Shown: positions 16,844 through 49,689 of the stretch, piece after piece
How positions within the stretch are numbered: position 1 is the first letter of the stretch
Layout of the letters: every line of letters starts with the position of its first letter
DNA from: Chelatococcus reniformis
GTDB taxonomy: Bacteria > Pseudomonadota > Alphaproteobacteria > Rhizobiales > Beijerinckiaceae
Assembly: GCF_014640075.1 (NCBI RefSeq)
Contig: NZ_BMGG01000010.1
Coordinates: forward strand, 62,001-126,000
Length of the DNA stretch: 64,000 nucleotides
Direction of reading: 5' to 3'
The notes under the pieces: generated by a model
Database searches by the model: none
What the model was told of the DNA's origin: nothing
What the model saw: only the letters and a program-made list of their open reading frames with translations
Position numbers and translations under genes: made by a program

Positions 16844-16892
16844 GCCTCGTGGTGTCGGCCGTCGCGGTGGCAGGGCGCCTCTTGATCGGTCG

Positions 16893-16975
16893 ATGGTCGG
16901 GTCAAGCCCGACCATGACGGGTGGGAGAAGCAGCCCCTTTCTCGGCGTCACGGTCGGGCTTGACCGGGCCATCCA
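16893..16975. repeat. GGTCGGG-type palindromic repeat pair
   Basis: A perfect 9-bp stem ATGGTCGGG/CCCGACCAT with loop TCAAG (16893-16915), and an inverted related unit at about 16949-16975. It belongs to the same family as the units at 29570, 34939, 51533, 52924 and 54423. It lies between the convergent response regulator and kinase genes and overlaps the kinase 3' end. Confidence 0.75.
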
Positions 16976-20837: not shown

Positions 20838-21503
20838 TTAGGGCGTCGCCGGCTCCAGGTAGCTTTCCCACGCGTCGATGGAGACGGCGAGCGACGGATC
20901 GGCCTCGGGGCCCCACAGCTCCCGGGCCGAGAAGCGCACGCAGTAGAGCCACTGCGGATTTTCACCCTGACCATGGGCATGGGTATCGGGCAGCACGTAG
21001 CCGCCGTGGACGATCTCGACGGTGCCGAGCTTGCCCCGGGCATAGCGCGGCAACCGCGTGTGGCCCCTAGGGTTCATCTCACGCGCCCGCAGGCGGTCGC
21101 CGACGGCGAAGCGCGCCGGCGTCGCGACAGGCCGGTCGTAGGACGAGCCCTTGGCCATGGCGGCCAACGCGGCTTCTGCGGAGAGCACGCGCGGGATCGG
21201 GCGGGGCGCTTCGAGTGCTCGGCCCTGTGCCAGTTCCTCCGCCGTGACCAGCCCGTGAGCGAGGAGCAGCCGCTCGAGCCCTTTGGTCCAGATTTCGTAG
21301 TAGCTGGAGGCGAGATAGTCGGCCGGGTGCAGGCTCTCGCGCATGTGCCGCGAGGCATCAATGTTCCAGACGCCGCCGCCGCCGACCGCGACGGTGAGCG
21401 CCAGGGCCCGTCGCTCCCACGGGGCATGAAAGCGCACCGCCTCGTCCTCGGGCATCACCGGGCCGAAGCCCATCATGCCGCCCATGTCCTGCGCACCGTT
21501 CAT
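20838..21503 (-). CDS. nthB: Nitrile hydratase beta subunit
   Basis: 221-residue beta subunit of the metalloenzyme that hydrates nitriles to amides in the cytoplasm. The N-terminus [16 protein letters not shown] is the classical beta-subunit start, and the C-terminal SH3-like barrel with [10 protein letters not shown] is present. ATG 21503 has GGAGGG about 8 bases upstream. It overlaps the alpha-subunit stop by four bases (ATGA), as expected for a stoichiometric heterodimer. The usual small activator gene is not downstream; an NCS1 permease follows instead. Confidence 0.95.
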
Positions 21504-22135
21504 GGCGTCGCTCCCTCCGGCGCGCGGGCAAGGCCGGTGCCGATCATCGAGTCGCGTGTCACCAGGTCGGCCAGGGCCTCTTCCGTCCAGCCATCGGTGT
21601 CGGCTGGCCGCCGGGGAATGACGAGGTAGCGGATCTCGGCCGTCGAATCCCAGACGCGGATGGTGGTTTCGGCCGGCAGCGCGACGCCGAAATCGGCCAG
21701 CACGGCGCGGGGCTCGATCACGGCACGGGAGCGGTAGGGGGCCGACTTGTACCAGACCGGGGGCAGGCCGAGCACCGGCCAGGGATAGCAGGAGCACAAG
21801 GTGCACACGACCATGTTGTGCACGTCGGGGGTGTTGGCCACCGCCACCAGGTGCTCGCCCTGGCGGCCGGTGTAGCCGAGCGCATGGACGGCGGCGGTGC
21901 CGTCGGCGAGCAGCCAGTCCCGGTAGGCCGGATCGTTCCAGGCTCTGGCGACGACGCGGGCGCCGTTGCGCGGGCCCACCCGGTGCTCGTAGAGCTCGAC
22001 GATGGCGTCGAGCGCCGCCGGATCGACATAGCCCTTCTCGACGAGCAGCGATTCCAGCGCCTTCACGCGCAAGGCGATCGGCGCGGGCTCGCCGCCCTCG
22101 TGACGGTGGTCATGGTCGTGACCGGCATCGCTCAT
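21500..22135 (-). CDS. nthA: Nitrile hydratase alpha subunit, cobalt-type metal site
   Basis: 211-residue alpha subunit carrying the metal centre. The motif VCTLCSC places the ligands at Cys111, Cys114 and Cys116; the last two are normally oxidised to sulfinate and sulfenate. Threonine in CTLCSC points to cobalt rather than iron (CSLCSC), from family knowledge. The N-terminus is His-rich (HDHDHRHE), which could help metal loading. ATG 22135 is preceded by GGAGA. First gene of a minus-strand operon: alpha, beta, NCS1 permease, hybrid kinase. Confidence 0.96.
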
Positions 22136-22364
22136 GGCAATCTCCGCTGGGTCCGGCGCTCGACGGCGAAGATGATCGCTCAAAGCCGCGCTGTCGAGCG
22201 GCGGCTTCCCGCGTCGGCGCGCAGCGTCCGGGGACGTTGCGGCAGCTGGAGCCTTCCGCCAGTTGCTCCGCCGCGCTCGGGACAACCTCCCCACGAGGGG
22301 AGGCCGTTCAACGGCTTTACGGCGTCATGACCATCCCATTGCGTGTCGATAATCTCGGCGAGCG

Positions 22365-24809: not shown

Positions 24810-26369
24810 ATGACCGATCCGCATTCTCGCGGCTCCACCATCGACCGCCGTCGCCTGATCGGCGCCTGCCTCGCCGGGGCCGGCCTTGTCGTCTTCGATC
24901 TGCCGGGCCGTGGCCGCGCCCAGGCCCAGCAGGGCAGTGCGCTCCGGGTGTCTGCCAACGTCAATCCGTCCACGCTCGACCCGGTGACCGGCCGCAGCGG
25001 CGGCGACCATCAGTTCCTCTATCCACTCTACGACACGCTGGTGCAGTGGGATCCCAAGACGCTGGCGGCGCGCCCCGGGCTCGCCCAGTCCTGGACCTAC
25101 AAGGACGACACCACGCTGGTCCTGGAACTGCGCCCCGGTGTCACCTTCCACGACGGCACGCCGCTCGACGCCGAAGCGGTCAAGTTCAACCTCGACCGCG
25201 CGCTCGGCGACGCCAAGTCCAACATCAAGGTCGACCTGTCATCGGTGGATTCGGTCGAGGTGAGCGGGCCGACCACGGTCACCATCAAGCTCAAGGCCCA
25301 GGACCGCTCGCTGCCCCTCATCCTGTCCGACCGGGCGGGCATGATGGCGTCTCCCACCGCCGTCAAGGCGGGCGGCGGCAGCATCGACCGGGCACCGGTG
25401 GGCGCCGGCCCCTGGAAGTTCGTGAAGTGGGACGACGCCGCCATCGTCGTCTACGAGCGCAACCCGGCTTATTGGGACAAGGGCATTCCCAAGGTCGACC
25501 GGCTCGAGATGAAGGTGATTCCCGAGGTGGCGACCGGCGTGCGCTCCGTAATGGCCGGGGAGAACGACGTCGTCGTTGCCGTGCCGCCGATGCAGAAGGT
25601 GATCCTCGACCGCTCCGACAAGGTCGCGGTCTATGCGACGCCGTCGCTCTATCTGCACATGATCTACGTCGACTTCTCCAAGCCGCCGTTCAACGACGTG
25701 CGCGTGCGCAAGGCGCTCAACCTCGCCATCGACCGCTCCATCTTCAACAAGCTCGCTCTGGCGGGGCTCGGCCAGCCGGCGACGACGCTCTTCCCCACGG
25801 AGTTCTGGGCCTACGACCCCTCCCTCACCGATATCCTCGCCTACGACCCGGAACGGGCGAAGGCGCTGCTGAAGGAGGCCGGCACCCCTGAAGTCACCTT
25901 CACCGGCATCACCTATTCCGATCAGGCCGCGGTGAAACGGCAGGAAATCCTGATCGAGATGTGGCGCAAGGTCGGCATCAAGGCGCAGATGCGGACAGCC
26001 TCCGTGCCCGAGGCCTCCTCGGCGTTCTTCTTCCAGCGGCAGATCGACACCTTCGTTGCCGCCATCACCTCGCGGCCGGACCCGTCGATGGGGCTCTATA
26101 CGCTGTTCGGCAAGTCCTCGCCCTACAACGGGGGCCGCCAGGAGATCCCGGGCATGGAAGCGGCACTGGCCGAATCGCGCATGGGCGCCACCCAGGAGCA
26201 GCGCAAGGTCGGGCTGTCCAAGGTGCAGCGGATCGCGCTCGATCAGGCGCTGTTCGTGCCGCTGGTGTTCGACGTCAGCATTACCGCCGTCAGCAAGAAG
26301 TTCGACGGCTTTCAGCCGAACCTGTTCGGACGGCCGCGGTTCGAGACCGTCGGCGTGGCGGCGAGCTGA
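24810..26369 (+). CDS. ABC transporter substrate-binding protein, family 5, without permease genes
   Basis: 519-residue periplasmic binding protein of the DppA/OppA family. The Tat-type signal DRRRLIGACLAGAGLVVF is followed by an AQAQ cleavage region. Family motifs include SWTYKDDTTLVLELRPGVTF and NDVRVRKALNLAIDRS. GGAGGGTACT precedes the ATG. It heads a cluster of CoA ligases and carboxyltransferases and has no permease or ATPase nearby. It must borrow a transporter encoded elsewhere, possibly but not necessarily the one at 12113-15923. Confidence 0.92.
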   Translation: MTDPHSRGSTIDRRRLIGACLAGAGLVVFDLPGRGRAQAQQGSALRVSANVNPSTLDPVTGRSGGDHQFLYPLYDTLVQWDPKTLAARPGLAQSWTYKDDTTLVLELRPGVTFHDGTPLDAEAVKFNLDRALGDAKSNIKVDLSSVDSVEVSGPTTVTIKLKAQDRSLPLILSDRAGMMASPTAVKAGGGSIDRAPVGAGPWKFVKWDDAAIVVYERNPAYWDKGIPKVDRLEMKVIPEVATGVRSVMAGENDVVVAVPPMQKVILDRSDKVAVYATPSLYLHMIYVDFSKPPFNDVRVRKALNLAIDRSIFNKLALAGLGQPATTLFPTEFWAYDPSLTDILAYDPERAKALLKEAGTPEVTFTGITYSDQAAVKRQEILIEMWRKVGIKAQMRTASVPEASSAFFFQRQIDTFVAAITSRPDPSMGLYTLFGKSSPYNGGRQEIPGMEAALAESRMGATQEQRKVGLSKVQRIALDQALFVPLVFDVSITAVSKKFDGFQPNLFGRPRFETVGVAAS

Positions 26370-26381
26370 GGGGAGGCGTTC

Positions 26382-27995
26382 ATGCTCGACAAGCGTATGC
26401 CGCCGCGGAATGACGTGGTCATCCGCGACCTCATCGACCGGCGCGCACGGGAGATCCCCGACAACGTCTTCGCGGTGTTATCCGACGGCTCGGAATGGAC
26501 CTTCGGAGAATTGCGCAGGCGGGTTCGCAATTGCGCGGAGGCGTTGCAGCGGCTCGGGGCCGGGCAGGGTGACTTCGTGCTGGTCTGGCTGCCCAACGGG
26601 CCGACCTGCCTCGAGGTGATGTTTGCCCTCAACTACCTCGGTGCCATCTACGTGCCGATCAACACCGGCTATCGCGGCGGCCTGCTGGCGCACGTCATCG
26701 ACAATGCCGGCGCCAAGCTGATGATCGCGGACGCACAGTTGGTCGAGCGGCTGGCCGATGTGAGCCACGCCGATCTGCGCACGGTGGTGGTGGTCGGCGG
26801 CGGCGCCCGCGAGGTCCCGGGCCTCACCCTCCTGGATCAGGGCGTTCTGGTCGGCGATGGCGAGGCGCTGGCGCCGCCGCAGCGCCAGATCGAGCCCTGG
26901 GACACGCTATCGATCATTTACACGTCGGGGACCACCGGCCCGTCGAAGGGCGTGCTCATCTCGGCGCTGCAGATGTACGCGACGTTCATTCCCCGCGGCG
27001 TGCTCGAGCCCGAAGACCGCACGCTGGTGACGCTGCCCATGTTCCACGTGGGCGGTGCCGGGCCGATCTGGTCCACCCTGATGCGCGGCGGCTCCTTCGC
27101 GCTCACCGAGGCATTCCGCACCAGCGAGTTCTGGTCGACGATCCGCCGCTTCGGCATTACCCACACCATTCTGCTCGGGGCAATGACGCCCTTCCTGCTC
27201 AAGGAACCGGCGTCTGCCGAGGATCGCACGCACCCGCTCACCAAGGTGTCGATGATCCCGCTCACCGACCAGCACCGGGAGTTCACGGCGCGTTTCGGTA
27301 TCGAGGTCTACACCGGCTTCAACATGACCGAGACATCCTCGCCGCTGCACTGCGGGCCTGATCCTGCGTCGCCGGGCACCTGCGGCCAGCCCCGCGACGG
27401 CATCGAGGCGCGCGTCGTCGACGAGAACGATTGCGAAGTGGGCCCGGGCGTGGTCGGCGAACTGATCCTGCGGGCCGACATGCCCTTTGCCCTGAACCAC
27501 GGCTACCACAAGAATCCGGAAGCCACGGCCAAGGCCTGGCGCAACGGCTGGTTCCACACCGGCGATGCCTTCCGGCGCGACGAGGAGGGCAGCTTCTACT
27601 TCGTCGACCGCATGAAGGACGCCATCCGCCGGCGCGGCGAGAATATCTCGTCCTTCGAGGTGGAGAAGGAGATCGTCGCCTACGAGGACGTCCGCGACGC
27701 TGCCGTGGTGGCGGTGCCGAGCGAGTTCGGCGAAGACGAGGTGATGGCGATCCTCAGCCCGGCGCCGGGGCGCAACATCGATCTGCCGGCGCTCGTGGAG
27801 TTCCTCAGGCCGCGGCTCGCCCACTTCATGGTGCCGCGCTATTTCCGCGTCATCGACGACCTGCCGCGCACGCCCACCGAGAAGGTGCAGAAGCACCTGC
27901 TGCGCAGCGAGGGCATTACCCCCGATACCTGGGACCGCGAAAAGGCCGGCATCGTGCTCAAGCGCGAGCGCCTGACCCAGGGTACCGCTGCATGA
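26382..27995 (+). CDS. AMP-forming acyl-CoA ligase, CaiC-like (ligase 1)
   Basis: 537-residue adenylate-forming enzyme activating a carboxylic acid to its CoA ester. Adenylation motif YTSGTTGPSKG at residues 180-190, a central GFNMTETSS, the hinge stretch VDRMKDAIRRRGENISSFEV, and a C-terminal TPTEKVQKHLL carrying the probable catalytic lysine. The hinge variant is that of crotonobetaine/carnitine-CoA ligase relatives. It is clearly paralogous to ligase 2 at 31991. GGGGAGG precedes ATG 26382, 12 bp after the binding-protein stop, so the two are co-transcribed. Confidence 0.92.
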   Translation: MLDKRMPPRNDVVIRDLIDRRAREIPDNVFAVLSDGSEWTFGELRRRVRNCAEALQRLGAGQGDFVLVWLPNGPTCLEVMFALNYLGAIYVPINTGYRGGLLAHVIDNAGAKLMIADAQLVERLADVSHADLRTVVVVGGGAREVPGLTLLDQGVLVGDGEALAPPQRQIEPWDTLSIIYTSGTTGPSKGVLISALQMYATFIPRGVLEPEDRTLVTLPMFHVGGAGPIWSTLMRGGSFALTEAFRTSEFWSTIRRFGITHTILLGAMTPFLLKEPASAEDRTHPLTKVSMIPLTDQHREFTARFGIEVYTGFNMTETSSPLHCGPDPASPGTCGQPRDGIEARVVDENDCEVGPGVVGELILRADMPFALNHGYHKNPEATAKAWRNGWFHTGDAFRRDEEGSFYFVDRMKDAIRRRGENISSFEVEKEIVAYEDVRDAAVVAVPSEFGEDEVMAILSPAPGRNIDLPALVEFLRPRLAHFMVPRYFRVIDDLPRTPTEKVQKHLLRSEGITPDTWDREKAGIVLKRERLTQGTAA

Positions 27996-28026
27996 CCAAT
28001 TTCCCCTCCCGGCCGACGAGAAGGCA

Positions 28027-29562
28027 ATGATCAACAAGACGACGTCCGACCTGGCGGCTGAGCTCGATGCGCGGCGCCGCAAGGTGCACGCCATGGGCGG
28101 CGAGGCCAAGCTCGCTGCCCGGCGCGAGCGCGGCATCCTGAACGCACGCGAGCGCATCGACGCGCTGGTCGATCCGGGCAGCTTCACCGAGCTCGGCGAG
28201 TTCGCCCATTCGGCCCGCGACGAGGACAAGGACCGCACGCCGGCCGAGGGCATCGTCACCGGCTTCGGCCGGGTCGAGGGCCGCGAGGTGGCGGTTGCGT
28301 CCTTCGACCTGACGACGCTCGGCGCTTCGTCGTCGGTCACCAACATCCGCAAGCTCGCTTTCCTCAAGACGAGCGCCTCGCGCGCCGGCATTCCCTGCGC
28401 CTTCCTGATCGAGTCGGCCGGCGCGCGCATGCCCGACATCCAGGGCGCCGTCGGCATGGGCCGCATCGGCCTGCTGCCGGCCAACAACCGCGACCGGGAC
28501 GTGCCCTGGGTCTGCGCGGTGCTCGGGCCGTGCTACGGCATGGGCACCTGGTACGCGGTGCAGTCCGACTTCTCCGTCATGCGGCGGGACGCCACCTTCT
28601 CGGTGTCCAGTCCCAAGGTCGTTTCGGTGGCCCTGAGCCAGGAATTGACCCCGGAAGAGCTCGGCGGCTCCGACGTGCACGCCGAGGTGACCGGCCAGAT
28701 CGATCTGGTGACCGACACGGACGCGGAGGCGATCGCGGCGCTGCGCCGCTTCCTCGCCTACCTGCCGTCGAACTGCGCCGAGGCGCCGCCGCGGGCGGAG
28801 GGCCCGGTGCAAGCCCATGCGGCCGAAGAGGTCGACGCGCTCATTCCGGCCGCCCGGCACAAGATCTACGACGGCCGCAAGCTGGTCGAGCTGCTGGCCG
28901 ATGCAGGCTCGGTGATGCCGTACCGGCAGCGCTACGGGCGCACGCTGGAGACGTCGCTGGCCCGGCTCAACGGCCGCCCGGTCGGCATCATCGCCAGCAA
29001 TCCGATGCGCAAGGGCGGCGCCATCGATGGGCCGTCCTGCAACAAGATGACCGAGTTCATCGTGCTCTGCGACAGCTTCAACATCCCGCTGGTGCTGCTC
29101 GCCGATACGCCCGGCTTCCTTATCGGGCTCAAGCCCGAGCTGGACGGCGTCGCCGGCATGATCATGAACAACCTGCGGGCGCTGGCGCTGGCGAGCGTGC
29201 CCAAGCTCGCCGTCGTGGTGCGCAAGAGCTATGGCCAGGCCTACCTCAACCTCGGTGGCGGCGTCGCCGACGCCCTCGCCGTCATGACCACGGGCGAGGT
29301 CGGCTTCGTCGATCCGGCGGTCGCCGTCAGCGTCGTGCACAACCGCAGGCCCGAACCGGGTGACAACTCCTACGCCGAGCTCATGGACGACATGGTCGTC
29401 AGCAACTCGCCCTTCGAGCTCGCCGGCATCTTCGCCGCCCACGCGGTGATCCGTCCCGGCGAGACGCGGGAGTGGCTGATCCGCATGCTCGACGTCTACC
29501 AGCGCCGCATGCAGGGGGGCGTCAGCCAGCATCGCTTGGCCACGTGGCCGACGAGCCTCTAG
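28027..29562 (+). CDS. Acyl-CoA carboxylase carboxyltransferase (CT) subunit-like protein 1
   Basis: 511-residue two-domain crotonase-fold protein of the AccD5/PccB/MmdA family, which transfers CO2 between biotin and an acyl-CoA. N-domain oxyanion loop SAGARMPDIQGAVG, the linker PEELGGSDVH, and the C-domain loops LADTPGFLIG and VRKSYGQAYLNLGGG are present. No biotin carboxylase or biotin-carrier gene is in the window, so it may use housekeeping subunits or act as a decarboxylase or other CoA-enolate enzyme. It lies 31 bp after ligase 1. Confidence 0.88.
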   Translation: MINKTTSDLAAELDARRRKVHAMGGEAKLAARRERGILNARERIDALVDPGSFTELGEFAHSARDEDKDRTPAEGIVTGFGRVEGREVAVASFDLTTLGASSSVTNIRKLAFLKTSASRAGIPCAFLIESAGARMPDIQGAVGMGRIGLLPANNRDRDVPWVCAVLGPCYGMGTWYAVQSDFSVMRRDATFSVSSPKVVSVALSQELTPEELGGSDVHAEVTGQIDLVTDTDAEAIAALRRFLAYLPSNCAEAPPRAEGPVQAHAAEEVDALIPAARHKIYDGRKLVELLADAGSVMPYRQRYGRTLETSLARLNGRPVGIIASNPMRKGGAIDGPSCNKMTEFIVLCDSFNIPLVLLADTPGFLIGLKPELDGVAGMIMNNLRALALASVPKLAVVVRKSYGQAYLNLGGGVADALAVMTTGEVGFVDPAVAVSVVHNRRPEPGDNSYAELMDDMVVSNSPFELAGIFAAHAVIRPGETREWLIRMLDVYQRRMQGGVSQHRLATWPTSL

Positions 29563-29569
29563 GATCGAG

Positions 29570-29604
29570 GATGGGATGGCCGGGCTTGACCCGGCCATCC
29601 CATC
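29570..29604. repeat. GGCCGGG palindrome (15-bp stem)
   Basis: Perfect 15-bp inverted repeat GATGGGATGGCCGGG/CCCGGCCATCCCATC with loop CTTGA, 7 bp after the stop of carboxyltransferase 1. It may terminate or attenuate transcription before the TetR gene. Same family as the units at 16893, 34939, 51533, 52924 and 54423. Confidence 0.8.
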
Positions 29605-29645
29605 CAGTCGGAAAAGTCGGCCCTCGCGGGGACGATCGAAAGGTG

Positions 29646-30275
29646 ATGGCGGACGTGACGCAGGCCAGGCCCCGGTGGAACGGTGAGTTCGAATCATCGT
29701 CGGAGCAGCAGGCGCTGAAGCGCCGGCTCATCCTGCGCGAGGCGGGCGCGGCCTTCAACGAGCGCGGCTTCCGCAACGTTTCGCTCGACGAGGTCGCGGT
29801 CAAGCTCGGGATCTCCAAGACGGTCTGCTACTATTACTTCCGCGACAAGAACCATCTGCTGCTGAGCTGCGTCGAGATCGGCTTCGAGCTGGCCGAGCAC
29901 GCCCTGGACGTGGCCGAGGCGCTGGACGGCCGGGGGCTCGACAGGGTCGTCGCGTTCACGCGCACCTATGTCGAGGGCATCACCTCGGACTTCGGCAGCT
30001 GCGCCGTGCTGACCGACATGAATTCGCTGCACGCCGACGACCTCAAGGCCGTGCGCACCCGCCAACGGCAGTTCGGCCGGCGCCTCATCAAGCTGGTGGA
30101 GGCAGGCCAGGCGGATGGCAGCATCGATGTGGCGAACGCCCGGGCGGCAGTGAGCTGGATCGTCAGCGCGCCGCTCATGATCCCCCGCCTGACCGAGCTG
30201 TGGCAGAGCCAGGGCACGGCCTGGCTCGCCGACCATTACGCCGAGTTCACGCGCCGGTCGCTGGCGCGGCGGTGA
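29646..30275 (+). CDS. TetR-family transcriptional regulator
   Basis: 209-residue regulator with an N-terminal helix-turn-helix (about residues 27-72; SLDEVAVKLGISKTVCYYYFRDKNHLL) and a helical ligand domain. ATG 29646 follows AAGG at very short spacing; a GTG at 29643 is out of frame. It lies at the centre of the symmetric ligase/carboxyltransferase cluster, so a CoA ester made by the cluster is a plausible inducer. The candidate operator is the palindrome at 24649. Confidence 0.9.
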   Translation: MADVTQARPRWNGEFESSSEQQALKRRLILREAGAAFNERGFRNVSLDEVAVKLGISKTVCYYYFRDKNHLLLSCVEIGFELAEHALDVAEALDGRGLDRVVAFTRTYVEGITSDFGSCAVLTDMNSLHADDLKAVRTRQRQFGRRLIKLVEAGQADGSIDVANARAAVSWIVSAPLMIPRLTELWQSQGTAWLADHYAEFTRRSLARR

Positions 30276-30343
30276 GGGTGGCCCCCCGCGAAGCCGACGC
30301 CCATCCGGTGACGCGACAACACGACGACAAGGAGACGTCCCAC

Positions 30344-31903
30344 GTGACGACGCAGGTCGAATCCCGAGCCCTCCTGACCGATGTGGAGGAGGCGAAGGCG
30401 TCGCTGACCGACGCCCGCCGCGGCGCGGCGCTGGAGCGTCAGCGCAAGCGCGCCGACATGACCGCGCGCGAGCGCATCGCCTATCTCTGCGACAAAGGCT
30501 CGTTCCAGGAGATCGGCGGCCTCGCCCATCCCAAGGAGGGCGCGGCGAAGCGGGCCCCGGCCGACGGCGTGGTCGTCGGCACCGGGCGGGTCGACGGCCG
30601 CTGGTGCGCCGTCGTCTCGCAGGATTTCAGCGTGTTCGGCGGCTCCATCGGCGAGATCGGCAGCGACAAGACCAGCCGTATCGCCCATATCGCACGCGAG
30701 CAGGGCATGCCGCTGGTCATGCTGCTCGACGGCGGCGGTCACCGCATCCAGGGCGGCCAGAACTCCCGGCACTTCGCCAAGGCCGGCCCGTTCTTCCACG
30801 AGCTGGCGCGCATGTCGGGCTGGGTGCCGATGGTCGCGGCCATGCTCGGCGCCGGCTTCGCCGGGCCGACCAACTACGCCGGCATGGCCGACTTCGTCGT
30901 GATGGTGCGCGGCCGCTCCACCATGGGCCTGGCCGGGCCGGCACTGGTGAAGGCCGGTACGGGCGAGGAGATCGGCCTGGAGGAGCTCGGCGGCGCCGAG
31001 GCCCAGGTCGACCGCCACGGCCTCGCCGACCTCGGCGTCGAGAGCGAGGCGGCGGCGATCGATGCGGTGAAGCGCTATCTCTCCTATCTGCCGTCCAATG
31101 CCCGCCAGCCGCTGCCGCTCGGGCCGCCCGACGATCCACTCGATCGGCGGGCGGAAGCGCTGCTCGACCTCGTCCCGGCCAACACGCGGCGCGTCTACGA
31201 CATCCGCAAGGTGATCGACCACGTCGTCGACGCCGGCAGCTCCTTCGAGATCAAGCCGACCTTCGCTCGCAACATCGTCACGTCACTCGCCCGGCTCGGC
31301 GGGCGCCCGGTGGGTGTCATCGCCAACCAGCCGATGCGGCTCGGCGGCATGCTCACCTCGGACGCCTGCGACAAGGCCGCCCACTTCATCGCGGTGTGCG
31401 ACGCCTTCGGCCTGCCGCTGGTCTACCTGATCGACGTGCCCGGCTTCTCGATCGGCTCCGGCGCCGAGCGCACGGTGCTGGGCCGGCACAGCGCCAAGAT
31501 GGTGTTCGAGCTGGGCCAGGCCACGGTGCCGCGGATCTCCGTCGTGCTGCGCAAGGGCTACGGCCTCGGCTACTTCGCCATGTGCGGCGGCCGCAGCTTC
31601 GGCGCCGACGCGAGCTTCGCCTGGCCGACGGCCGAGATCTGCGCCATGTCGATCGAAGGCTCCGTCGACGTGGCCTACCGCCAGGACTACGAGAAGGCGG
31701 CCGATCCCGCCGCTCGCCGGCAGGAGCTGATCGACAAGATCCGGGCCGACATCGGCGTCCTGGAGGCGGCCGGCGGCTTCGGCATCGACGACGTGATCGA
31801 TCCCCGCGATACCCGCTTCCAGCTGATCTCGGTGCTCAGCCGGGCGCCGGCCCGGCGCGACAACCGCCAGCCGCCGAAGTTCAGGAGCATTGTCCCGATC
31901 TGA
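30344..31903 (+). CDS. Acyl-CoA carboxylase carboxyltransferase-like protein 2
   Basis: 519-residue CT-fold paralogue. The N-domain loop reads DGGGHRIQGGQ, the linker EELGGAEAQ (the usual histidine after GGA replaced by Gln), and the C-domain loops IDVPGFSIGSGAE and RKGYGLGYFAMCGG. GTG 30344 is preceded by AAGGAGA at 9 bases; the open frame extends upstream into the TetR gene but without signals. It pairs with ligase 2 downstream in reversed order relative to the ligase 1/CT 1 pair. No biotin subunits nearby; the reaction may be non-canonical. Confidence 0.87.
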   Translation: MTTQVESRALLTDVEEAKASLTDARRGAALERQRKRADMTARERIAYLCDKGSFQEIGGLAHPKEGAAKRAPADGVVVGTGRVDGRWCAVVSQDFSVFGGSIGEIGSDKTSRIAHIAREQGMPLVMLLDGGGHRIQGGQNSRHFAKAGPFFHELARMSGWVPMVAAMLGAGFAGPTNYAGMADFVVMVRGRSTMGLAGPALVKAGTGEEIGLEELGGAEAQVDRHGLADLGVESEAAAIDAVKRYLSYLPSNARQPLPLGPPDDPLDRRAEALLDLVPANTRRVYDIRKVIDHVVDAGSSFEIKPTFARNIVTSLARLGGRPVGVIANQPMRLGGMLTSDACDKAAHFIAVCDAFGLPLVYLIDVPGFSIGSGAERTVLGRHSAKMVFELGQATVPRISVVLRKGYGLGYFAMCGGRSFGADASFAWPTAEICAMSIEGSVDVAYRQDYEKAADPAARRQELIDKIRADIGVLEAAGGFGIDDVIDPRDTRFQLISVLSRAPARRDNRQPPKFRSIVPI

Positions 31904-31990
31904 CGGCCCCCGGCTCGGCGGCGCTGCGACGGCGGCGAGCCGCCACCTGGCGCCGGCAGCCGTCCCGACACAAGAAGGCAGGAGGAAGTG

Positions 31991-33616
31991 ATGGAGAACG
32001 GCTGGACCGATCCGCGCGTGCCCGCAGCGGACGTCTGCGTCCTGCGCGACGTGCTCGAGCGCTACGTCCGAACGCAGCCGGACAAGGTCTTCCTTCGGTT
32101 CGCCGACGGCGGCGAGTGGACCTACCGGCAGATGCGCGAGGAAGCCGTGCGGGCGGCGCACGGCCTGCGCGCCCTCGGCGTCAAGCAGGGCGAGCACGTG
32201 CTGTCATGGCTGCCCAATGGCCGGGACGCCTTTCGCGTCTGGTTCGGCCTCAACTATCTCGGCGCCGTTTATGTGCCCGTCAACCTGGCCTATCGCGGCA
32301 GCATCCTGGCCCATGTGGTGGAGAACTCCGACGCGCGGCTGATCGTAGCCCACGCCGAGCTCTGCGGCCGGCTCGGCGCCATCGACCGCGCCAAGCTGGA
32401 GGAGGTGGTGGTGATCGGCGGCGAGGCCGGGGCTGACACGGGGTTGGCCGTGCATCCGGCCGGCGCATTGCTCGCCGCGGAGGCCGGCGAGCCGCCGGCC
32501 CTCGAGCGCCCGATCATGCCGTGGGACACACAATCGATCATCTACACCTCCGGCACCACCGGGCCGTCGAAGGGTGTGTTGTCGAGCTATCTGCACCTCT
32601 ATTCCATGGGGGCGGAGCCATGGCCCTATTTCGGGCCCGACGACCGAGGCATGTGCAACCTGCCGCTGTTCCATGCCGGTGGCACCGGCGCCGTCTATCG
32701 TTCGCTGGTGCGCGGCGCCTCGGTCGCCGTCTTCGACGCCTTCTCGACCCAGGATTTCTGGCGGCTCGTGCGCGAGCACGGGGTGACGACCACGGTGCTG
32801 CTCGGCGTCATGGCGACCTTCCTGGTCAAGCAGCCGCCGTCGGAGGAGGATCGCGGCCACGGGCTCAAGTCTGTCACCATGGTGCCGCTGTGCGAGGACG
32901 CGGAGCTGTTCTCGCAGCGCTTCGGCGTCGAGGTCTACACCACCTTCAACATGACCGAGACGTCGTGCCCGATCGTCTCGGAGCGCAACCCGGCCGCGCT
33001 CTCCAGCTGCGGCAAGCCGCGTGCCGGCGTCGCCGTGCGCATCGTCGACGCCAATGACTGCGAGGTCCCGGTCGGTGAGGTGGGTGAGCTCGTCGTGCGC
33101 ACCGACCGGCCATGGGCGATGAACCACGGTTACTACAAGAACCCGGAAGCCACCGCGAAAAGCTGGCGCAACGGCTGGTTCCACACGGGCGATGCGTTCC
33201 GCATGGACGCCGCCGGCGACTTCTTCTTCGTCGACCGGATGAAGGACGCCATCCGCCGGCGCGGCGAGAACATTTCATCCTTCGAGGTCGAAACCGAGAT
33301 CTGCGCACACCCCGCCGTGAAGGAGGCGGCCGTCGTCGCCGTGCCGAGCGAATTCGCGGAGGACGAGGTGCTGGCGGCGGTGTCGCTGACGGACGGAGCC
33401 CAGCTCGATCCGGCCGAGCTGATCGCCTTTCTGTTGCCGCGCATGGCCCATTTCATGGTGCCGCGCTATGTGCGCGTGCTGCCGGACCTGCCGAAGACGC
33501 CGACCCAGAAGGTGCAGAAGCACATCGTGCGCAGCGACGGGATCACCGCCGACACCTGGGACCGTGAGGCGGCTGGCATCCGCATCAAGCGCGAGAAGAT
33601 CGGGATCTCCGCCTGA
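31991..33616 (+). CDS. AMP-forming acyl-CoA ligase, CaiC-like (ligase 2)
   Basis: 541-residue paralogue of ligase 1 with the same landmarks: YTSGTTGPSKGVLSS, TFNMTETSC, VDRMKDAIRRRGENISSFEV and TPTQKVQKHIV. ATG 31991 directly follows GGAGGAAG; the GTG one codon upstream is an alternative. The near-identical hinge in both ligases but different substrate-pocket stretches suggests an old duplication with changed specificity. It follows carboxyltransferase 2 by 87 bp and precedes a type-1 binding protein by 68 bp. Confidence 0.92.
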   Translation: MENGWTDPRVPAADVCVLRDVLERYVRTQPDKVFLRFADGGEWTYRQMREEAVRAAHGLRALGVKQGEHVLSWLPNGRDAFRVWFGLNYLGAVYVPVNLAYRGSILAHVVENSDARLIVAHAELCGRLGAIDRAKLEEVVVIGGEAGADTGLAVHPAGALLAAEAGEPPALERPIMPWDTQSIIYTSGTTGPSKGVLSSYLHLYSMGAEPWPYFGPDDRGMCNLPLFHAGGTGAVYRSLVRGASVAVFDAFSTQDFWRLVREHGVTTTVLLGVMATFLVKQPPSEEDRGHGLKSVTMVPLCEDAELFSQRFGVEVYTTFNMTETSCPIVSERNPAALSSCGKPRAGVAVRIVDANDCEVPVGEVGELVVRTDRPWAMNHGYYKNPEATAKSWRNGWFHTGDAFRMDAAGDFFFVDRMKDAIRRRGENISSFEVETEICAHPAVKEAAVVAVPSEFAEDEVLAAVSLTDGAQLDPAELIAFLLPRMAHFMVPRYVRVLPDLPKTPTQKVQKHIVRSDGITADTWDREAAGIRIKREKIGISA

Positions 33617-33684
33617 CGCGTGGCGGTTTCCCGCGGGCTACATCAAGCTGCCACCAGAACAGCGGAACGACGGAGGGACAAGAT

Positions 33685-34923
33685 ATGACCAAGGACATCG
33701 GCGCTCCGCTCGTGCGGCCGGACGGTGACATTTCCCGGCGCGGGCTGCTCAAGGCAGCCGCCGCACTCGGCGGCGGGCTCGCCCTGCCTGGGCTCGGCTG
33801 GGCTCAGGGGGCGGGCGAGCCGTTCAAGATCGGCTGGGTGAGGCCGACGACCGGGCGCCTTGCCTCGTCCTTCGCGCCGCTCTACGCGGGCGGCGTGATC
33901 GCCATCGACGAGATCAACGCCGCGGGCGGCATCATGGGGCGGCCGATCGTCCGCGATGAGCAGGATGACGAGGCATCACCCGCCAAGGAGCCCGGCATCA
34001 TCCTCAAATACCAGGGGGCGGGCATCCACTTCGTGTGCGGTCCGACCGGCTCCTCGCAGGCGCTGGCGTCGCTCTCGGCCACCACGGCGCGCAAGATGAT
34101 TCAGACCACCTATGGTCTTGCCGCCGATATGGGCAACGGGCGCAAGTATCCCTACCACTACCAGCTGATCTTCAACTCCGACCAACAGGCGGTCGCCTGC
34201 GTGAGCTATCTGACGGACGTGCTGAAGCTCAAGAAGATCGGCATCCTGCAAGAGAGCACTGCCTATGGGGAGCAGATCACGCCCGTGTCGAAGGCGGAGC
34301 TGAAGAAGCGGGGTCTCGATCCCGTCGACGTGCAGGTGTTCCCGATCACCGCTCCGGATCTTTCGGGCTACGTCCAGGCCCTGCGCAAGGCCGGCGCCGA
34401 GGGCATCCTGATGTGGATGTCGACTGTCCCCAATGCGGCCATGATCTTCAATGCCATGAACGCGATGAAGTGGTTCCCGCCGATCACGGGTCACACGTCC
34501 CTCTTCCTGGAATCACTGCTCGACCTGGTGCCGCGCGAAGCACTCACGAACGTCTACGGCACCTGGTACAAGTCCCTGACCTGGACGGCCACGGAGAGTC
34601 CGGCCCCGCGCCAGGTCGAGTATGCCAAGAAGATCCTCGCCGCTCCCGATGCCAAGGGCAGCGAGATCAATGCGGCCGGCAGCCCGTACTACGATTTCCT
34701 TCATCTGCTGAAGATGGCCATCGAGCAGGAGAAGAGCTTCGACGTGGAGCGCGTCAAGGCCGTGCTCGACAGTACCAAGGGCTACAAAGGCATGCTCGGC
34801 ACCCTGAGCTTCACGCCGGAGCAGCACTGCGGCATCGATGTTGCCGACTTGGTGATGGCGACGGTCACCTCGGCGCGCGAGCCGAAGGCCATGGGCATCT
34901 TCCGGGAGCGCGCTCCGGGCTGA
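33685..34923 (+). CDS. Branched-chain amino-acid-type (LivJ-like) periplasmic binding protein, orphan
   Basis: 412-residue type-1 periplasmic binding protein. Tat signal SRRGLLKAAAALGGGLALPG, then the family opening FKIGWVRPTTGRLASSFAPL and the pocket region CGPTGSSQALA. Relatives bind branched-chain amino acids, amides, urea, aromatic or dicarboxylic acids. No LivHMGF permease or ATPase genes lie nearby. Its place at the end of a ligase/carboxyltransferase cluster suggests it captures the acid that the ligases activate. GGAGGGACAAG precedes the ATG. Confidence 0.92.
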   Translation: MTKDIGAPLVRPDGDISRRGLLKAAAALGGGLALPGLGWAQGAGEPFKIGWVRPTTGRLASSFAPLYAGGVIAIDEINAAGGIMGRPIVRDEQDDEASPAKEPGIILKYQGAGIHFVCGPTGSSQALASLSATTARKMIQTTYGLAADMGNGRKYPYHYQLIFNSDQQAVACVSYLTDVLKLKKIGILQESTAYGEQITPVSKAELKKRGLDPVDVQVFPITAPDLSGYVQALRKAGAEGILMWMSTVPNAAMIFNAMNAMKWFPPITGHTSLFLESLLDLVPREALTNVYGTWYKSLTWTATESPAPRQVEYAKKILAAPDAKGSEINAAGSPYYDFLHLLKMAIEQEKSFDVERVKAVLDSTKGYKGMLGTLSFTPEQHCGIDVADLVMATVTSAREPKAMGIFRERAPG

Positions 34924-34938: not shown

Positions 34939-34963
34939 CATGGCCGGGTCGCGCCCGGCCATG
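34939..34963. repeat. GGCCGGG palindrome (10-bp stem)
   Basis: Perfect stem CATGGCCGGG/CCCGGCCATG around TCGCG, 16 bp after the binding-protein stop and before the convergent HxlR gene. Possible bidirectional terminator; member of the window-wide palindrome family. Confidence 0.75.
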
Positions 34964-35549: not shown

Positions 35550-35667
35550 TAGAGCGCTTCTCCCTGATCGGGTGGAATCACCCGATCAGGGAGAAGCGCT
35601 CCAGATTAAAAGACTTGGAGCATTTCTAACCGATCAGATGATTCCATCTGATCGGGAAATGCTCTAG
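35550..35667. repeat. Compound palindromic repeat (two long hairpins)
   Basis: 118-bp element bounded by TAGAGC and GCTCTA. The first hairpin is a perfect 23-bp inverted repeat (35552-35574 and 35579-35601) with loop GAAT. The second (about 35618-35640 and 35645-35664) is imperfect around ATTC and shares GAGCATTTC with the RIME-like units. Common ends suggest a relative of the elements at 10530, 38104 and 51412 with a different interior. Confidence 0.8.
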
Positions 35668-35986
35668 CGAGCCACGGATGGCGCCGAGATGGGCGTCGTG
35701 CCTGTGGGCCTCAAGACCCCGGATATATAGGTTCCATTTTTGCCCATAAAGGTCAATATCTCTGCCGTTTCTAGCACGAGATCGTACAAAATGCCGTCTC
35801 ACGCGCCGTTACGGGCACGGCCGGTCGGCCGGCTTGACCGTTCTCTAAGGGAACGATAGCACCTCCGAGGTGACCGCGACCGGCTGGGCCGGCAGTTCCG
35901 CGCTGCCGTCCGCTGCTTGGCTTGGGCGCATCCGCCTCTATCGTGGCTGCCGGCGGGGCCAGGCCCGCGAACCATGGGAGGCGTGC
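35668..35986. promoter_or_regulatory. AT-rich divergent promoter region between HxlR and carboxyltransferase 3
   Basis: 319 bp. The stretch 35719-35795 is strikingly A+T-rich for this window, including TATATA at 35723-35728, a CCATTTTTG run and AAAGGTCAATATC. It is the likeliest site for the HxlR and carboxyltransferase 3 promoters and for HxlR binding. I cannot assign exact -35/-10 boxes with confidence. The remainder shows nothing. Confidence 0.4.
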
Positions 35987-37534
35987 GTGAGCGAAGGGGA
36001 CAAGGCCGCCGAGATCGAGCAACGGCGTGCGCGCGCCGGGCTGCAGGGCGGCGCGGAGGCGATCGCCAAGCAGCACGGGCGCGGCCGGCTGACCATTCGC
36101 GAGCGCATCGATCGCGTCCTCGATGCGTCCTCGTTCCGCGAGGTCGGGCCGATCGCCGGCAAATCGGAGGTCGCGGCCGACGGCAGCACCAGCTTCACCC
36201 CCGGCAATTTCGTTGTCGGCTTCGGCCGCATCGGCGGGCGCAACTGCGTCGTCGCCGGCGAGGACTTCACCCAGGCGGCCGGCTCGCCCAATGCCGCCGG
36301 CCTGCGCAAGAGCGTCTATACGGAGGAACTTGCGATCCAGTATCGCGTGCCGCTGGTCCGCTTCCACGAGGGGTCGGGCGGCAGCGTCGGGGGCAGCGAC
36401 AAGGCGGGGCCGTCGCTGCCGGAGGCGCTGCACGGGCGGCATCGCTTCTTGTCGGTCGCCCAGGCGCTGGCGACCGTGCCGGTCGTCAGCGCCGCCGTCG
36501 GCACCGTGGCCGGTCTGCCCGCGGGCCGGCTAGTGTCGTCGCACTACACGGTCATGACGCGCACCTCGCAGGTGATCATCGGCGGGCCGGCCCTGGTGGA
36601 GCGCGCGCTCGGCATGAAGGTCAGCAAGGAGGACCTCGGCGGACCGACGATCCACGAGAAGAGCGGTGTCGTCGACGACGTGGTGGAGGACGAGGCGGCG
36701 GCCTTCGATGCGGTTCGCACCTTCCTGTCCTATCTGCCGCAGAACGTCTGGGAGCTGCCGCCGCGGAGGGCCACCGACGATCCGCCGGGCCGCATGGATG
36801 CGGCGCTCGACGGGATCGTGCCGGCCAATCGGCGCCGGGTCTACGACATTCGGGCGGTCGTCCGGTCGGTGCTGGATCAGGGCTCGTTCTTCGAAATGGG
36901 ACGGCGCTTCGGGCCGGGACAGGTCGTCGGCCTGGCCCGGCTCGCCGGTTACCCCGTCGGCATCTTCGCCAACGACGTCAGGCATTTCGGCGGCGCCATC
37001 ACCGCCGACGGCGCGCAGAAGCTGCGCCGCTTCGTCGAGTTCTGCCAGACCTTCCACCTTCCCGTCATCTCCTTCGTCGACGAGCCGGGCTTCATGATCG
37101 GCCCCGAGGCGGAGCGCGCCGCCACCATGCGCTACGGCGCCATGGCGCTCGCCACCGTCGCGCTGGCGACGGTGCCGTGGGCTACGGTCAGGGTGCGCAA
37201 GAGCATGGGCCTGGCGAGCTATGCCCACGTCGCACCCGGCGCCTTCGTGCTGGCCTGGCCGACGGTCGAGATGGGCGCGTTGCCGCTCGAGGGCGGCGTC
37301 GCCGTCGCCTTCAAGCACGAGATCGCCCAGGCGGAGGATCCGGCCGCCAAGCGCGCCGAGCTCGAGGCCGAGCTCGCCGCCCGGCAAAGCCCGTTCCGCC
37401 AGGCCGACGGCTTCGCCGTGCACGACCTGATCCACCCGCGCGAGACGCGGCCGCGGCTCGCCGACTGGATCGAACTGGTGCAGCCGCTGCTCACCGCCCA
37501 ACTCGGCCCCTCGTCATTCTCGTACCGGCCTTGA
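35987..37534 (+). CDS. Acyl-CoA carboxylase carboxyltransferase-like protein 3
   Basis: 515-residue CT-fold protein. The linker KEDLGGPTIHEKSGVVDDVVEDE matches true carboxyltransferases well, but the N-domain oxyanion loop reads HEGSGGSVGGSDKAG instead of the usual GGARIQEG, and the C-domain loop RKSMGLASYAHVAPG lacks the usual Tyr-Gly-Gly. GTG 35987 has GGGAGG 5 bases upstream. Monocistronic and divergent from HxlR. Substrate and even reaction type are uncertain. Confidence 0.87.
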   Translation: MSEGDKAAEIEQRRARAGLQGGAEAIAKQHGRGRLTIRERIDRVLDASSFREVGPIAGKSEVAADGSTSFTPGNFVVGFGRIGGRNCVVAGEDFTQAAGSPNAAGLRKSVYTEELAIQYRVPLVRFHEGSGGSVGGSDKAGPSLPEALHGRHRFLSVAQALATVPVVSAAVGTVAGLPAGRLVSSHYTVMTRTSQVIIGGPALVERALGMKVSKEDLGGPTIHEKSGVVDDVVEDEAAAFDAVRTFLSYLPQNVWELPPRRATDDPPGRMDAALDGIVPANRRRVYDIRAVVRSVLDQGSFFEMGRRFGPGQVVGLARLAGYPVGIFANDVRHFGGAITADGAQKLRRFVEFCQTFHLPVISFVDEPGFMIGPEAERAATMRYGAMALATVALATVPWATVRVRKSMGLASYAHVAPGAFVLAWPTVEMGALPLEGGVAVAFKHEIAQAEDPAAKRAELEAELAARQSPFRQADGFAVHDLIHPRETRPRLADWIELVQPLLTAQLGPSSFSYRP

Positions 37535-40492: not shown

Positions 40493-40495
40493 GGC

Positions 40496-41446
40496 TCAGC
40501 CCCTCGCCTCGGTCATGGCGGCACCGAGCGTGCGCTCGACCAGCAGCAGCTTGAAGGCATTGTCGGAGGTCGGCGCAGCCCCGGCCAACAACTGCGAGGT
40601 CACGGCCTTGGCGCCGCGCGGCATATCGGCTTCCGCCGCCTCGACCCGCCATGGCTTGGGCGCCACGCCGCCCAGCGCGACGCGCCCCGTGCCGTCCTTG
40701 TGCACGATGGCGGCCACCGAGATCAGCGCGAAGGCGTAGGACGCCCGGTCGCGGACCTTATGGTAGATCTGCGTGCCTCCTGCCGGCTTTGGCAACGTGA
40801 CGCCTGTGATCAGTTCGCCCGGCGCGAGCACGCTCTCCAGATGTGGCGTGTCTCCCGGCAGCCGGTGAAAGTCGGCCATCGCGATGGTGCGGCTCTCGCC
40901 GGCCGGCCCGACGGTCGTGACGACGGCGTCGAGGGCCCGCATGGCGACGGCCATGTCGCTCGGGTTCGTCGCAATGCAGGCGCCGCTGCCGCCGATCACC
41001 GCCAGCGGCCGGCTGAACCCCTCGAGCGCCGCGCACCCGCTGCCGGGGTTGCGCTTGTTGCAGGGCATGTTGGTGTCATAGAAATAGGGGCAGCGCGTGC
41101 GCTGCAGCAGGTTTCCCGCGGTCGTCGCCCGGTTGCGCAATTGGCCCGAGGCGCCGGCCAGCAAGGCGCGCGACAGCAACGGATAGTCGCGTCGCACCCG
41201 CGCATCGGCGGCGAGGTCGGTGTTGCGGACCAGAGCGCCCACCTGCAGCCCGCCTTCCGGCGTCGGCTCGATCTTGTCGAGCGCCAACCCGTTGATGTCG
41301 ATGAGGTGCAGCGGGGTCTCGATCTGCAGCTTCATCAGGTCGAGCAGGTTGGTGCCACCGGCGATGAACTTGGCGCCGGGTGTACCTGCTGCGGCCACCG
41401 CCGCGGCGGCGGGCGTCCAGGCCCGCTCGTAGGTGAACGGCCTCAT
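40496..41446 (-). CDS. paoB: Aldehyde oxidoreductase FAD-binding subunit (PaoB/YagS-like)
   Basis: 316-residue FAD subunit. FAD motifs [11 protein letters not shown] and [14 protein letters not shown] are present. The insertion RCPYF...[12 protein letters not shown] supplies four cysteines for the extra [4Fe-4S] cluster typical of PaoB. ATG 41446 overlaps the PaoA stop by four bases. Electrons pass from Mo via PaoA clusters to this FAD. Confidence 0.93.
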
Positions 41447-42078
41447 GCTGGCCTCCCGGCGACTTCGGCCATGGCGTCGGCGATGTTGGAATAGGCCCCG
41501 CAGCGGCAGATGTTGCCGCTCATGCGCTCGCGCATCTCGATGCTGGTGGCCTGCGGCTGGACCGTGAGGTCGGTGGTGACGTGGCTTGGTATGCCGGCCT
41601 TGATCTCGGCCAGTACGGCGACGGCCGAGCAGATCTGACCGGGCGTGCAATAGCCGCATTGGTAGCCGTCATGCTTGATGAACGCGGCCTGCATCGGGTG
41701 CAGGTTCTCGGGCGTGCCGAGCCCCTCGATCGTGGTGATCTCGCTGCCCTGGTGCATGATGGCGAGCGTCAGGCAGGAGTTGATGCGTCGGCCGTCGACG
41801 ATCACCGTGCAGGCGCCGCACTGGCCGTGGTCGCAGCCTTTCTTGGTGCCGCTCAGGTGCAGATGCTCGCGCAATGCGTCGAGCAGCGTCGTGCGGGTGT
41901 CGAGATCAAGCTCGTGCGGCGCGCCGTTCACGCTCAGCGAGACCTTGGCTGTCACTTCGGCCTCCTTGGGGGCAGGTGCTGACCACGCCGTCTCGGGCAT
42001 CGCCATCAGGGCGGCGGATGCGGTGGTCCCGAGCAGCATCTGTCGCCGATTGAAATCCAGATCGATGGGGTCGCCCAT
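41443..42078 (-). CDS. paoA: Aldehyde oxidoreductase [2Fe-2S] subunit with Tat signal (PaoA/YagT-like)
   Basis: 211-residue iron-sulfur subunit. The N-terminus [20 protein letters not shown] is a Tat signal that would export the folded PaoABC trimer. The plant-type [2Fe-2S] loop [12 protein letters not shown] plus a later Cys, and the second cluster motif [10 protein letters not shown] with CRC, are intact. First gene of the operon; 250 bp separate it from the divergent LysR gene, which probably regulates it. Confidence 0.94.
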
Positions 42079-45142: not shown

Positions 45143-45196
45143 TGGCCGGCCGCGTTTCAACAGCGCGCCCTTCGCGCGATTGGAAGGAATACCGAC

Positions 45197-45940: not shown

Positions 45941-45996
45941 CCGGGCGCTCGCCAATACGGCGCCGTACTGAATGATAAAACAAAATCAGGTGGGGA

Positions 45997-47202: not shown

Positions 47203-47238
47203 CCGCCCGACGATCGCGCGCCGCAGAACCCGGGAGAC

Positions 47239-49678: not shown

Positions 49679-49689
49679 GGAGCCAGGCG

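Follow-up and report, generated by a model that had tools for sequence, protein, structure and literature searches.

Two carboxyltransferases in a seven-gene operon of Chelatococcus reniformis: a candidate biotin-dependent acyl-CoA carboxylase with biotin components supplied in trans

Gene content of the locus and biotin genes of the host genome

We analyzed a 64,000-nucleotide stretch of DNA from Chelatococcus reniformis (the window; G000:C10:62001-126000), which lies on a 376-kb contig, C10, of a 6.8-Mb genome in 39 contigs, and focused on a run of seven genes at positions 24810-34923. Below, Lnnn denotes a locus, Gnnn a genome and C10, C9 and so on the contigs of the C. reniformis genome, G000. 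Pfam matches and gene calls confirmed the gene content, order and coordinates given in an original prediction made from the letters of the sequence. The run comprises genes for a solute-binding protein (SBP), SBP5; an acyl-CoA ligase, LigA; a carboxyltransferase (CT), CT1; a TetR-type regulator; a second carboxyltransferase, CT2; a second ligase, LigB; and a second SBP, SBP6 (Table 1). The prediction had described these genes as a mirror-image cluster. The order of gene kinds is indeed mirrored, but all seven genes, including that of TetR, lie on the + strand, with successive gaps of 12, 31, 83, 2, 87 and 68 nt. A recent inverted duplication was rejected, since both arms share the same strand and are 35-57% identical (LigA versus LigB, 54-57%; CT1 versus CT2, 35-36%), and the two SBPs belong to different families. 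The two CT-fold proteins that had been predicted carry a full-length PF01039 domain, but they are not the only ones: a third, CT3, is encoded 3' of the run, from which it is separated by a gene for an HxlR-type regulator. All three score far above the cut-off of 22.3 bits (297, 414 and 291 bits). LigA and LigB are paralogues (about 56% identical), as had been proposed, but they did not qualify as CaiC-like, with 249.6 and 280.4 bits, respectively, against the equivalog cut-off of 651 for PRK08008. The best NCBIfam model for LigA, PRK06155, gave 504.9 bits, under its cut-off of 722.

Table 1. Features of the operon region in window coordinates
Feature	Description	Position	Strand	Basis
SBP5	Family-5 (Opp/Dpp-type) solute-binding protein, 519 aa	24810-26369	+	PF00496, 271 bits
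LigA	AMP-forming acyl-CoA ligase, 537 aa	26382-27995	+	PF00501, 221 bits
CT1	Carboxyltransferase	28027-29562	+	PF01039, 297 bits
Hairpin	Perfect 16-bp arms, in the CT1-TetR gap	29569-29605		
TetR	TetR-family regulator, ~209 aa	29646-30275	+	PF00440 and PF17932; start from gene call
CT2	Carboxyltransferase	~30278-31903	+	PF01039, 414 bits; start from gene call
LigB	AMP-forming acyl-CoA ligase, LigA paralogue	31988-33616	+	PF00501, 217 bits
SBP6	Periplasmic binding protein with Tat-type signal	33685-34923	+	PF13458, 136 bits
CT3	Third carboxyltransferase, 3' of the seven-gene run	35987-37534	+	PF01039, 291 bits, frame 35870-37534; start from gene call

The identical seven-gene order was found in Camelimonas fluminis (L025). 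Comparison of the window with L025 gave dN/dS values of 0.28 for SBP5, 0.24 for LigA, 0.21 for CT1, 0.27 for TetR, 0.17 for CT2, 0.20 for LigB and 0.20 for SBP6, which are rough values given a dS of about 0.9-1.2 in these pairs. Since dN/dS is 0.17-0.28, the seven genes look maintained, and their recurrence in the same order indicates that the set is not a chance assembly. Copies of TetR that are 66-70% identical were observed in L019, L023, L024 and L025.

The absence of a biotin carboxylase (BC) or biotin carrier gene from the window, which had been noted before, was confirmed by a six-frame search. The genome contains 11 matches to PF02785 (BC) and 15 to PF00364 (biotin/lipoyl domain), and none of them lies anywhere on C10. 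A dedicated BC or carrier gene just outside the window, which the original prediction had named as a result that would count against it, was thus not found. The prediction had also reasoned that CTs without such partners nearby are noncanonical. This premise failed when we surveyed the whole genome. Of its 18 PF01039 matches, 16 were counted as full-length, and two short ones on C1, presumably accD and accA, were set aside. For nine of the 16, a BC is part of the same chain or encoded no more than about 9 kb away; one, on C9, has a carrier and no BC nearby. The remaining six (CT1, CT2, CT3, C3:372495, C7:85578 and C12:83060) have neither in cis, indicating that such CTs are common in the host genome. 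The carrier on C9 belongs to locus L040 and is a small free biotin carrier of the type termed sBCCP here (about 73 aa); the same locus encodes a CT, a ligase, a permease-ATPase and a homologue of SBP6.

Both SBPs had been described as orphan and Tat-exported. Neither SBP5 nor SBP6 has an adjoining transporter gene, in agreement with the first description. Tat export was supported for SBP6, which passed TIGR01409 (19.4 bits; cut-off, 16.7) and failed the Pfam TAT_signal model (21.5 bits; cut-off, 22.7), but not for SBP5, in which RRR is visible by eye and the Tat models gave no match at an E value of 0.001. Homologues of SBP5, 74 and 71% identical, adjoin Opp-type genes (Vineibacter, L019), and the SBP of L040, with which SBP6 shares 61% identity, is encoded near a permease-ATPase gene of the branched-chain-amino-acid type. 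The Opp-type genes at 12.1-15.9 kb of the window were considered as partners of SBP5; such a partnership was not evident, the best pairs being 34-46% identical to the SBP5-linked genes of Vineibacter. In L169 and L174, a free sBCCP is encoded near an SBP5 homologue (44%), with transporter-sized genes in between; the stretch examined there contained no CT match.

Relatives of the carboxyltransferases and the small biotin carrier

The distribution of CT1 was investigated in other genomes. At an E value of 1e-140, CT1 matched in at least 12 of 385 genomes of the class and at least 2 of 398 genomes of the phylum, the host genome being included in both; these are lower bounds, because the best three candidates per genome were scored in the searches for CT1 and the ligase. 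A scan of genome contigs yielded 10 CT1 loci at 63-80% identity. In total, 23 CT1 loci were tallied (the window, L019-L028, L061-L068, L070, L071, L073 and L074). In this tally L073 stands in for L072 and L074 for the overlapping L069. The L043 rows represent the same region as L025 and were left out of the alignment and tree. L024, L065 and L071 are contig ends, and the examined flank was short in L022, L024, L065 and L071. The original prediction had proposed to check the co-occurrence of the ligase and CT orthologues with and without accA/accC-like genes. For CT1, the tally of biotin genes revealed an adjacent sBCCP gene in 10 of the 23 loci, L025 among them, and a BC within the examined flank in three (L064, L073 and L074).

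Among the arrangements observed are those of L025, with the order CT2'-SBP5-LigA-CT1-carrier-TetR-CT2-LigB-SBP6, and of L023 (Albimonas), with the order CT2'-SBP5-LigA-CT1-carrier-TetR. Gene calls place carrier frames with a biotin motif (74 aa in L025 and 71 aa in L023) exactly between CT1 and TetR, and the CT1 of the window is 78 and 79% identical to the CT1 of L025 and L023, respectively. The L025 carrier matched PF00364 with 55.7 bits. Among solved chains it matched a lipoyl E2 chain (46.1 bits), pyruvate carboxylase (40.8 bits), the gamma subunit of methylmalonyl-CoA decarboxylase (40.2 bits) and the 1.3S transcarboxylase subunit (39.9 bits). The sequence E-(A/S)-M-K-M-E was invariant in 15 of 15 aligned carriers, which are part of those found and were recognized partly by that motif; we take it to be a biotin and not a lipoyl attachment site.

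A second CT was encoded near CT1 in 9 of the 23 loci (the window, L023, L025, L026, L027, L028, L064, L066 and L074). This is well above chance, even with L026-L028 counted as one, since only about 0.05 further CTs are expected per 20-kb stretch (an estimate from 18 matches in 6.8 Mb). The second gene was of the CT3 type in L064, L066 and L074, and also in L170, a locus outside the 23. In L064 and L074, CT1-sBCCP-CT3 was accompanied by a BC in the same stretch. L170, which lies in the genome that also carries L024, encodes GntR, a family-III CoA-transferase, CT1, BC, sBCCP, CT3 and NMT1-type and ABC uptake proteins (1595-10046), making it a candidate for a complete four-component carboxylase. 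In L073 (4868-12594), BC-sBCCP is divergent from CT1; the locus also contains a gene of the hydantoinase/oxoprolinase type and a pair of genes for an ADP-forming acyl-CoA synthetase. An sBCCP together with a CT and no BC in the examined stretch was observed in L023, L025, L040, L044, L061, L062, L063, L066, L070 and L124.

The carrier was also searched for at a distance from CT1. In the eight genomes behind L019-L022, L024 and L026-L028, loci in which CT1 has no sBCCP gene next to it, a PF00364 search was performed and 10 candidate regions were opened, one of them in G796. Seven of the eight genomes had a free sBCCP bearing the motif ESMKM; in G796, the one region opened contained no motif-bearing carrier. 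Six of the seven carriers were 58-67% identical to the CT1-linked carrier of L070, and the seventh is the L170 carrier. For G103 and G379, in which sBCCP-CT1 lies without a nearby BC (L066 and L070), all eight BC matches were opened. Each genome has one free-standing BC, located beside an accB-like gene, and the other six matches belong to chains of 648-1206 aa, four of which contain a biotin motif by pattern.

We then examined how substrates might reach the CTs. AMP-forming ligases are encoded near CT1 in the window, L019, L023, L024 and L025, family-III CoA-transferases in L064, L074 and L170, and the ADP-forming synthetase pair in L073. A CoA-activating enzyme of one of these three unrelated kinds was thus found near at least 9 of 24 CT1 genes (the 23 loci and L170), a lower bound, as only some CT1 neighbors were scanned. 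The uptake genes near CT1 are of the Opp type (L019), NMT1 type with DctM (L064), NMT1 type (L074), NMT1 with ABC (L170), DctM (L020), ABC (L021) and TctC (L026). Import followed by CoA activation is supported by the fact that the activating and uptake gene types replace each other near CT1. An attempt to deduce substrates from these neighbors led nowhere, the types being too varied. In the host genome, 10 ligases, LigB included, are at least 56% identical to LigB, and five of them adjoin a CT. In other genomes of the class, 27 ligase loci were listed, and a CT or BC match fell within flanks of about 1.5 kb in 7 of them.

The relationships of the CTs were assessed in a quick tree, in which host-genome CTs identified by solved-structure search served as landmarks in place of the solved sequences of propionyl-CoA carboxylase (PCC), methylcrotonyl-CoA carboxylase (MCC) and long-chain acyl-CoA carboxylase (LCC). 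The best solved match of the host PCC was 6ybp (1003 bits), and that of the MCC-like CT was 3u9r (837 bits). CT1 formed a clade of 23 rows (SH-aLRT, 100) and the CT3-type sequences a clade of 8 rows (SH-aLRT, 96). The PCC and MCC landmarks fell in a separate branch (SH-aLRT, 93; two of its rows are long), with CT1, CT2 and CT3 outside. Neither this tree nor the solved-structure scores placed all of the CTs inside characterized PCC or MCC, a placement that the original prediction had said would speak against it. In the alignment, G-Q-A was present in 23 of 23 CT1 rows, down to 45% identity, and all 28 other rows had G-(not Q)-x. Similarly, seven of the eight CT3-type rows had His (L037 has Glu) where the remaining 43 of the 51 rows have Asp. 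We assume that these positions lie at or near the two oxyanion sites, the first corresponding to Gly419-Ala420 of Streptomyces PccB. A single pocket residue sets the substrate choice between GCC and MCC, as stated in the available text of PMC4673880.

The host genome encodes, on C6, a fused BC-BCCP-CT protein (BCCP, biotin carboxyl carrier protein), and the CT part of this fusion shares 66% identity with CT2. The best solved match of this fusion was 4rcn (693 bits, residues 3-1070), and its gene adjoins that of a ligase 62% identical to LigB. At an E value of 1e-150, CT2 matched in 4 of 60 relatives, the host genome included. The CT2 clade (12 rows; support, 90/93) includes the fused BC-BCCP-CT proteins of L036, L045 and L046, as well as L123, where a CT lies with BC-BCCP in cis, a ligase and a further sBCCP. 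It also includes L124, where a CT adjoins an sBCCP and a ligase and a further CT come next; no BC lies in the examined stretch, and the genome of L124, G254, carries the CT1-sBCCP locus L063 on the same contig, about 25 kb away. An origin of CT2 by fission of a fused enzyme was considered; the tree did not settle the direction. The fused and split states need at least two changes in this tree, which came with long-branch warnings.

At the position where L023 and L025 carry the sBCCP gene, the window contains the hairpin at 29569-29605. This hairpin might mark the end of a first transcript after CT1. Its core gave four window matches at up to 3 mismatches and 0 in shuffles; genome-wide, the strict form of the palindrome was limited to 2 sites. 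Labeling it as a member of a REP family was judged weak, given four loose matches in the window yet only 2 strict genome sites. Similar palindromes around CATGGCCGGG...CCCGGCCATG are located at 29569-29605, 34939-34963, 54426-54450, 54513-54537 and 16892-16916 of the window, that at 34939 having been found separately. Between the HxlR-type gene and CT3, there are perfect palindromes at 35552-35601 (23-bp arms; core unique within the window) and 35630-35655 (11-bp arms), with related half-sites; these are possible operators or hairpins.

Proposed function and alternatives

The probable role of the operon is to take up two types of compound, link them to coenzyme A and then add or transfer a carboxyl group. 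More specifically, we consider it fairly probable that it encodes a two-CT biotin-dependent acyl-CoA carboxylase in a catabolic import-activate-carboxylate module, with BC and carrier acting in trans. SBP5 and SBP6 would bind two substrates, and the membrane transporters would come from elsewhere. LigA and LigB would then convert the substrates or their breakdown products to CoA esters with ATP, and CT1, with CT2 and/or CT3, would shift a carboxyl group from carboxybiotin to a CoA ester, the direction that we infer for the reaction. CT1 and its partner CT most likely act jointly, either in a mixed oligomer with the two CTs in contact or in paired reactions, around a small carrier loaded by BC. 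Provision in trans is the most likely explanation for the absence of biotin genes in cis: the carrier gene would have been lost from the operon, with the C9 sBCCP or another carrier as candidate substitutes, and BC could be provided by accC or by the C8 BC, whose neighbors are 5-oxoprolinase-type genes. The operon is presumably under the control of TetR. Because a BC is encoded in L064, L073, L074 and L170, we regard ATP-dependent carboxylation as the more likely basic function. BC, sBCCP, CT1 and CT3, as in L064, L074 and L170, might form a four-component acyl-CoA carboxylase with a mixed CT oligomer and two differing kinds of active site. In the sBCCP-CT loci without BC, the carrier would be loaded in trans by AccC or a further BC, unless carboxyl groups pass from one CT to the other by transcarboxylation. 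Of the import-activate-(de)carboxylate module with noncanonical CTs that was originally predicted, import, activation and carboxyl transfer were supported by the activating enzymes and varied uptake genes near CT1, while biotin-independent CTs were not supported.

Several observations weigh against the two-CT carboxylase. An adjacent sBCCP gene is lacking in 13 of the 23 CT1 loci, including the window (in L067, one lies at a distance of about 8 kb), and a BC was missing from the examined flank, which was short in several cases, in 20 of the 23. No dedicated carrier or BC partner for the operon was identified, the C9 carrier belonging to module L040. The best total score of the L025 carrier was to the lipoyl E2 chain, so its assignment to biotin rests on motif and setting, and the count of free sBCCPs in seven of eight genomes refers to CT1-bearing genomes alone. 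Pfam detected no hydratase or mutase for a carboxylated product among the seven operon genes. Finally, the Gln of CT1 and the His of the CT3 type could reflect changed chemistry.

The original prediction had suggested biotin-independent decarboxylases or enolate-stabilizing hydrolases. The CT1-specific Gln and the His in 7 of 8 CT3-type rows versus Asp in 43 of 51 are consistent with such a role for CT1, CT2 and CT3, as are the lack of biotin genes on C10 and the 13 loci without an adjacent sBCCP. However, CT1s that are 78-79% identical adjoin a motif-bearing carrier, 10 of the 23 CT1 loci have such a neighbor and three loci also a BC, the one CT1 signature is common to all 23, and BC-BCCP fusions of the CT2 type exist. 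With TIGR03133, the model for the malonate decarboxylase beta subunit, CT1 (35.1 bits) and CT2 (62.9 bits) scored far below the cut-off of 278.15, and CT3 was not listed at an E value of 0.001. Given the sBCCP and BC genes next to orthologues, this explanation was dropped as the leading one, and we hold it to be very improbable. Even less can be said for a module decaying after loss of its carrier gene: the hairpin occupies the sBCCP position, as might be expected, but the frames are open and full length by family match, and dN/dS values of 0.17-0.28 make decay hard to credit.

Two further explanations keep biotin in play. Each CT could form its own oligomer within a separate, ordinary carboxylase that shares BC and carrier, in which case the clustering would reflect a shared regulon only. 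Stretches with a single CT (L019, L040, L061-L063, L070 and L073) fit this idea, and so does the sharing of AccA3 by several mycobacterial CTs (available text of PMC4347857). In 9 of 23 loci, however, CT1 lies near a second CT of the CT2 or CT3 type, and L064 and L074 combine CT1-sBCCP-CT3 and a BC in one stretch; this recurrent pairing argues against the idea, which we consider unlikely. In a transcarboxylase, on the other hand, a malonyl-type CoA ester would donate its carboxyl group to the sBCCP through one CT, and a second CoA ester would accept it through the other, so that two imported, CoA-activated acids would be cometabolized by a carboxylation step without BC, ATP or bicarbonate. Two ligases and two SBPs would serve the two substrates, and a second divergent CT in 9 of 23 CT1 loci, paired CTs in L044 and L124 and the ten stretches with sBCCP and CT and no BC are all consistent with this scheme. 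Moreover, G103 and G379 each have a single free-standing BC, with an accB-like gene as its neighbor, and the 1.3S subunit is among the matches of the carrier. As described in the available text of PMC3199775, BCCP is common to carboxylases, decarboxylases and transcarboxylases, whereas BC is limited to carboxylases. But L064, L074 and L170 have both CTs plus BC, L040, L061-L063, L070 and L073 have a single CT, accC could load the carrier in trans, and other biotin/lipoyl domains match the carrier equally well or better; we hold a transcarboxylase to be rather improbable. A sodium-pumping decarboxylase was rejected, the membrane carboxybiotin decarboxylase PF03977 being absent from 11 of 11 genomes searched, a result that also suits a transcarboxylase; PF03977 controls matched in 2 of 14.

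If the two-CT carboxylase is correct, the CT1 lineage with its G-Q-A signature travels with a mini carrier, often with a second divergent CT and mostly without a nearby BC. Questions that would then become testable are how a single BC might supply several carriers and CTs within one cell, whether mixed CT oligomers exist outside mycobacteria, and whether carboxyl groups pass from CoA ester to CoA ester. The absence of biotin genes near a CT would then also be no indication that the CT works without biotin. Neither the operon nor the two-CT design with a free mini carrier was described in the literature searched, which covered titles and abstract openings and left most subscription journals outside.

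Other genes of the window include those for nitrile hydratase alpha and beta, which adjoin a purine/cytosine-type permease gene (20838-22294, - strand), and three molybdenum hydroxylase genes of the xanthine-dehydrogenase type followed by a LysR-type gene (38294-42078, - strand). A run at 43358-51414 (+ strand) encodes a ligase, SDR, an SBP6-type protein, two acyl-CoA dehydrogenases, SDR and nitronate-monooxygenase-type proteins; the first of these dehydrogenases is 51% identical to one encoded near CT1-sBCCP in L061-L063.

Comparison with known systems

CT1, CT2 and CT3 share the CT domain PF01039 with propionyl-CoA and methylcrotonyl-CoA carboxylases, but lie outside the PCC/MCC branch. CT2 resembles single-chain LCC (PDB 4rcn), the best solved match of the C6 fusion to whose CT part it is 66% identical; unlike that enzyme, CT2 is free-standing and has a CT domain only, and both BC and BCCP are absent from its chain as well as from its contig.

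The Propionibacterium transcarboxylase (12S, 5S and 1.3S) combines a CT with a small separate carrier without a nearby BC, similarly to what was observed in L023 and L025, and its 12S chain 1on3 was the second-best solved match of CT1. In the known Propionibacterium enzyme, a CoA-type CT works alongside one of the pyruvate type, whereas CT1, CT2 and CT3 are all of the CoA type (PF01039).

In mycobacteria, AccD4, AccD5 and AccA3 are reported to associate, although no such mixed complex had been isolated for activity measurements, and fadD32, a ligase gene, is found in a cluster with accD4 (available text of PMC4064979 and PMC4347857). The AccA3-AccD4-AccD5-AccE5 acyl-CoA carboxylase resembles the present system in having two different CTs and a CT gene clustered with a ligase gene. 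Chain D4a of 9t97, which we take to be AccD4, was the third-best solved match of CT1. The shared mycobacterial alpha subunit carries BC and also the biotin carrier, whereas in relatives of the operon the carrier is a protein of its own, about 73 aa long, encoded next to genes for uptake and CoA activation. A two-CT design with a free mini carrier would be an uncommon variant.

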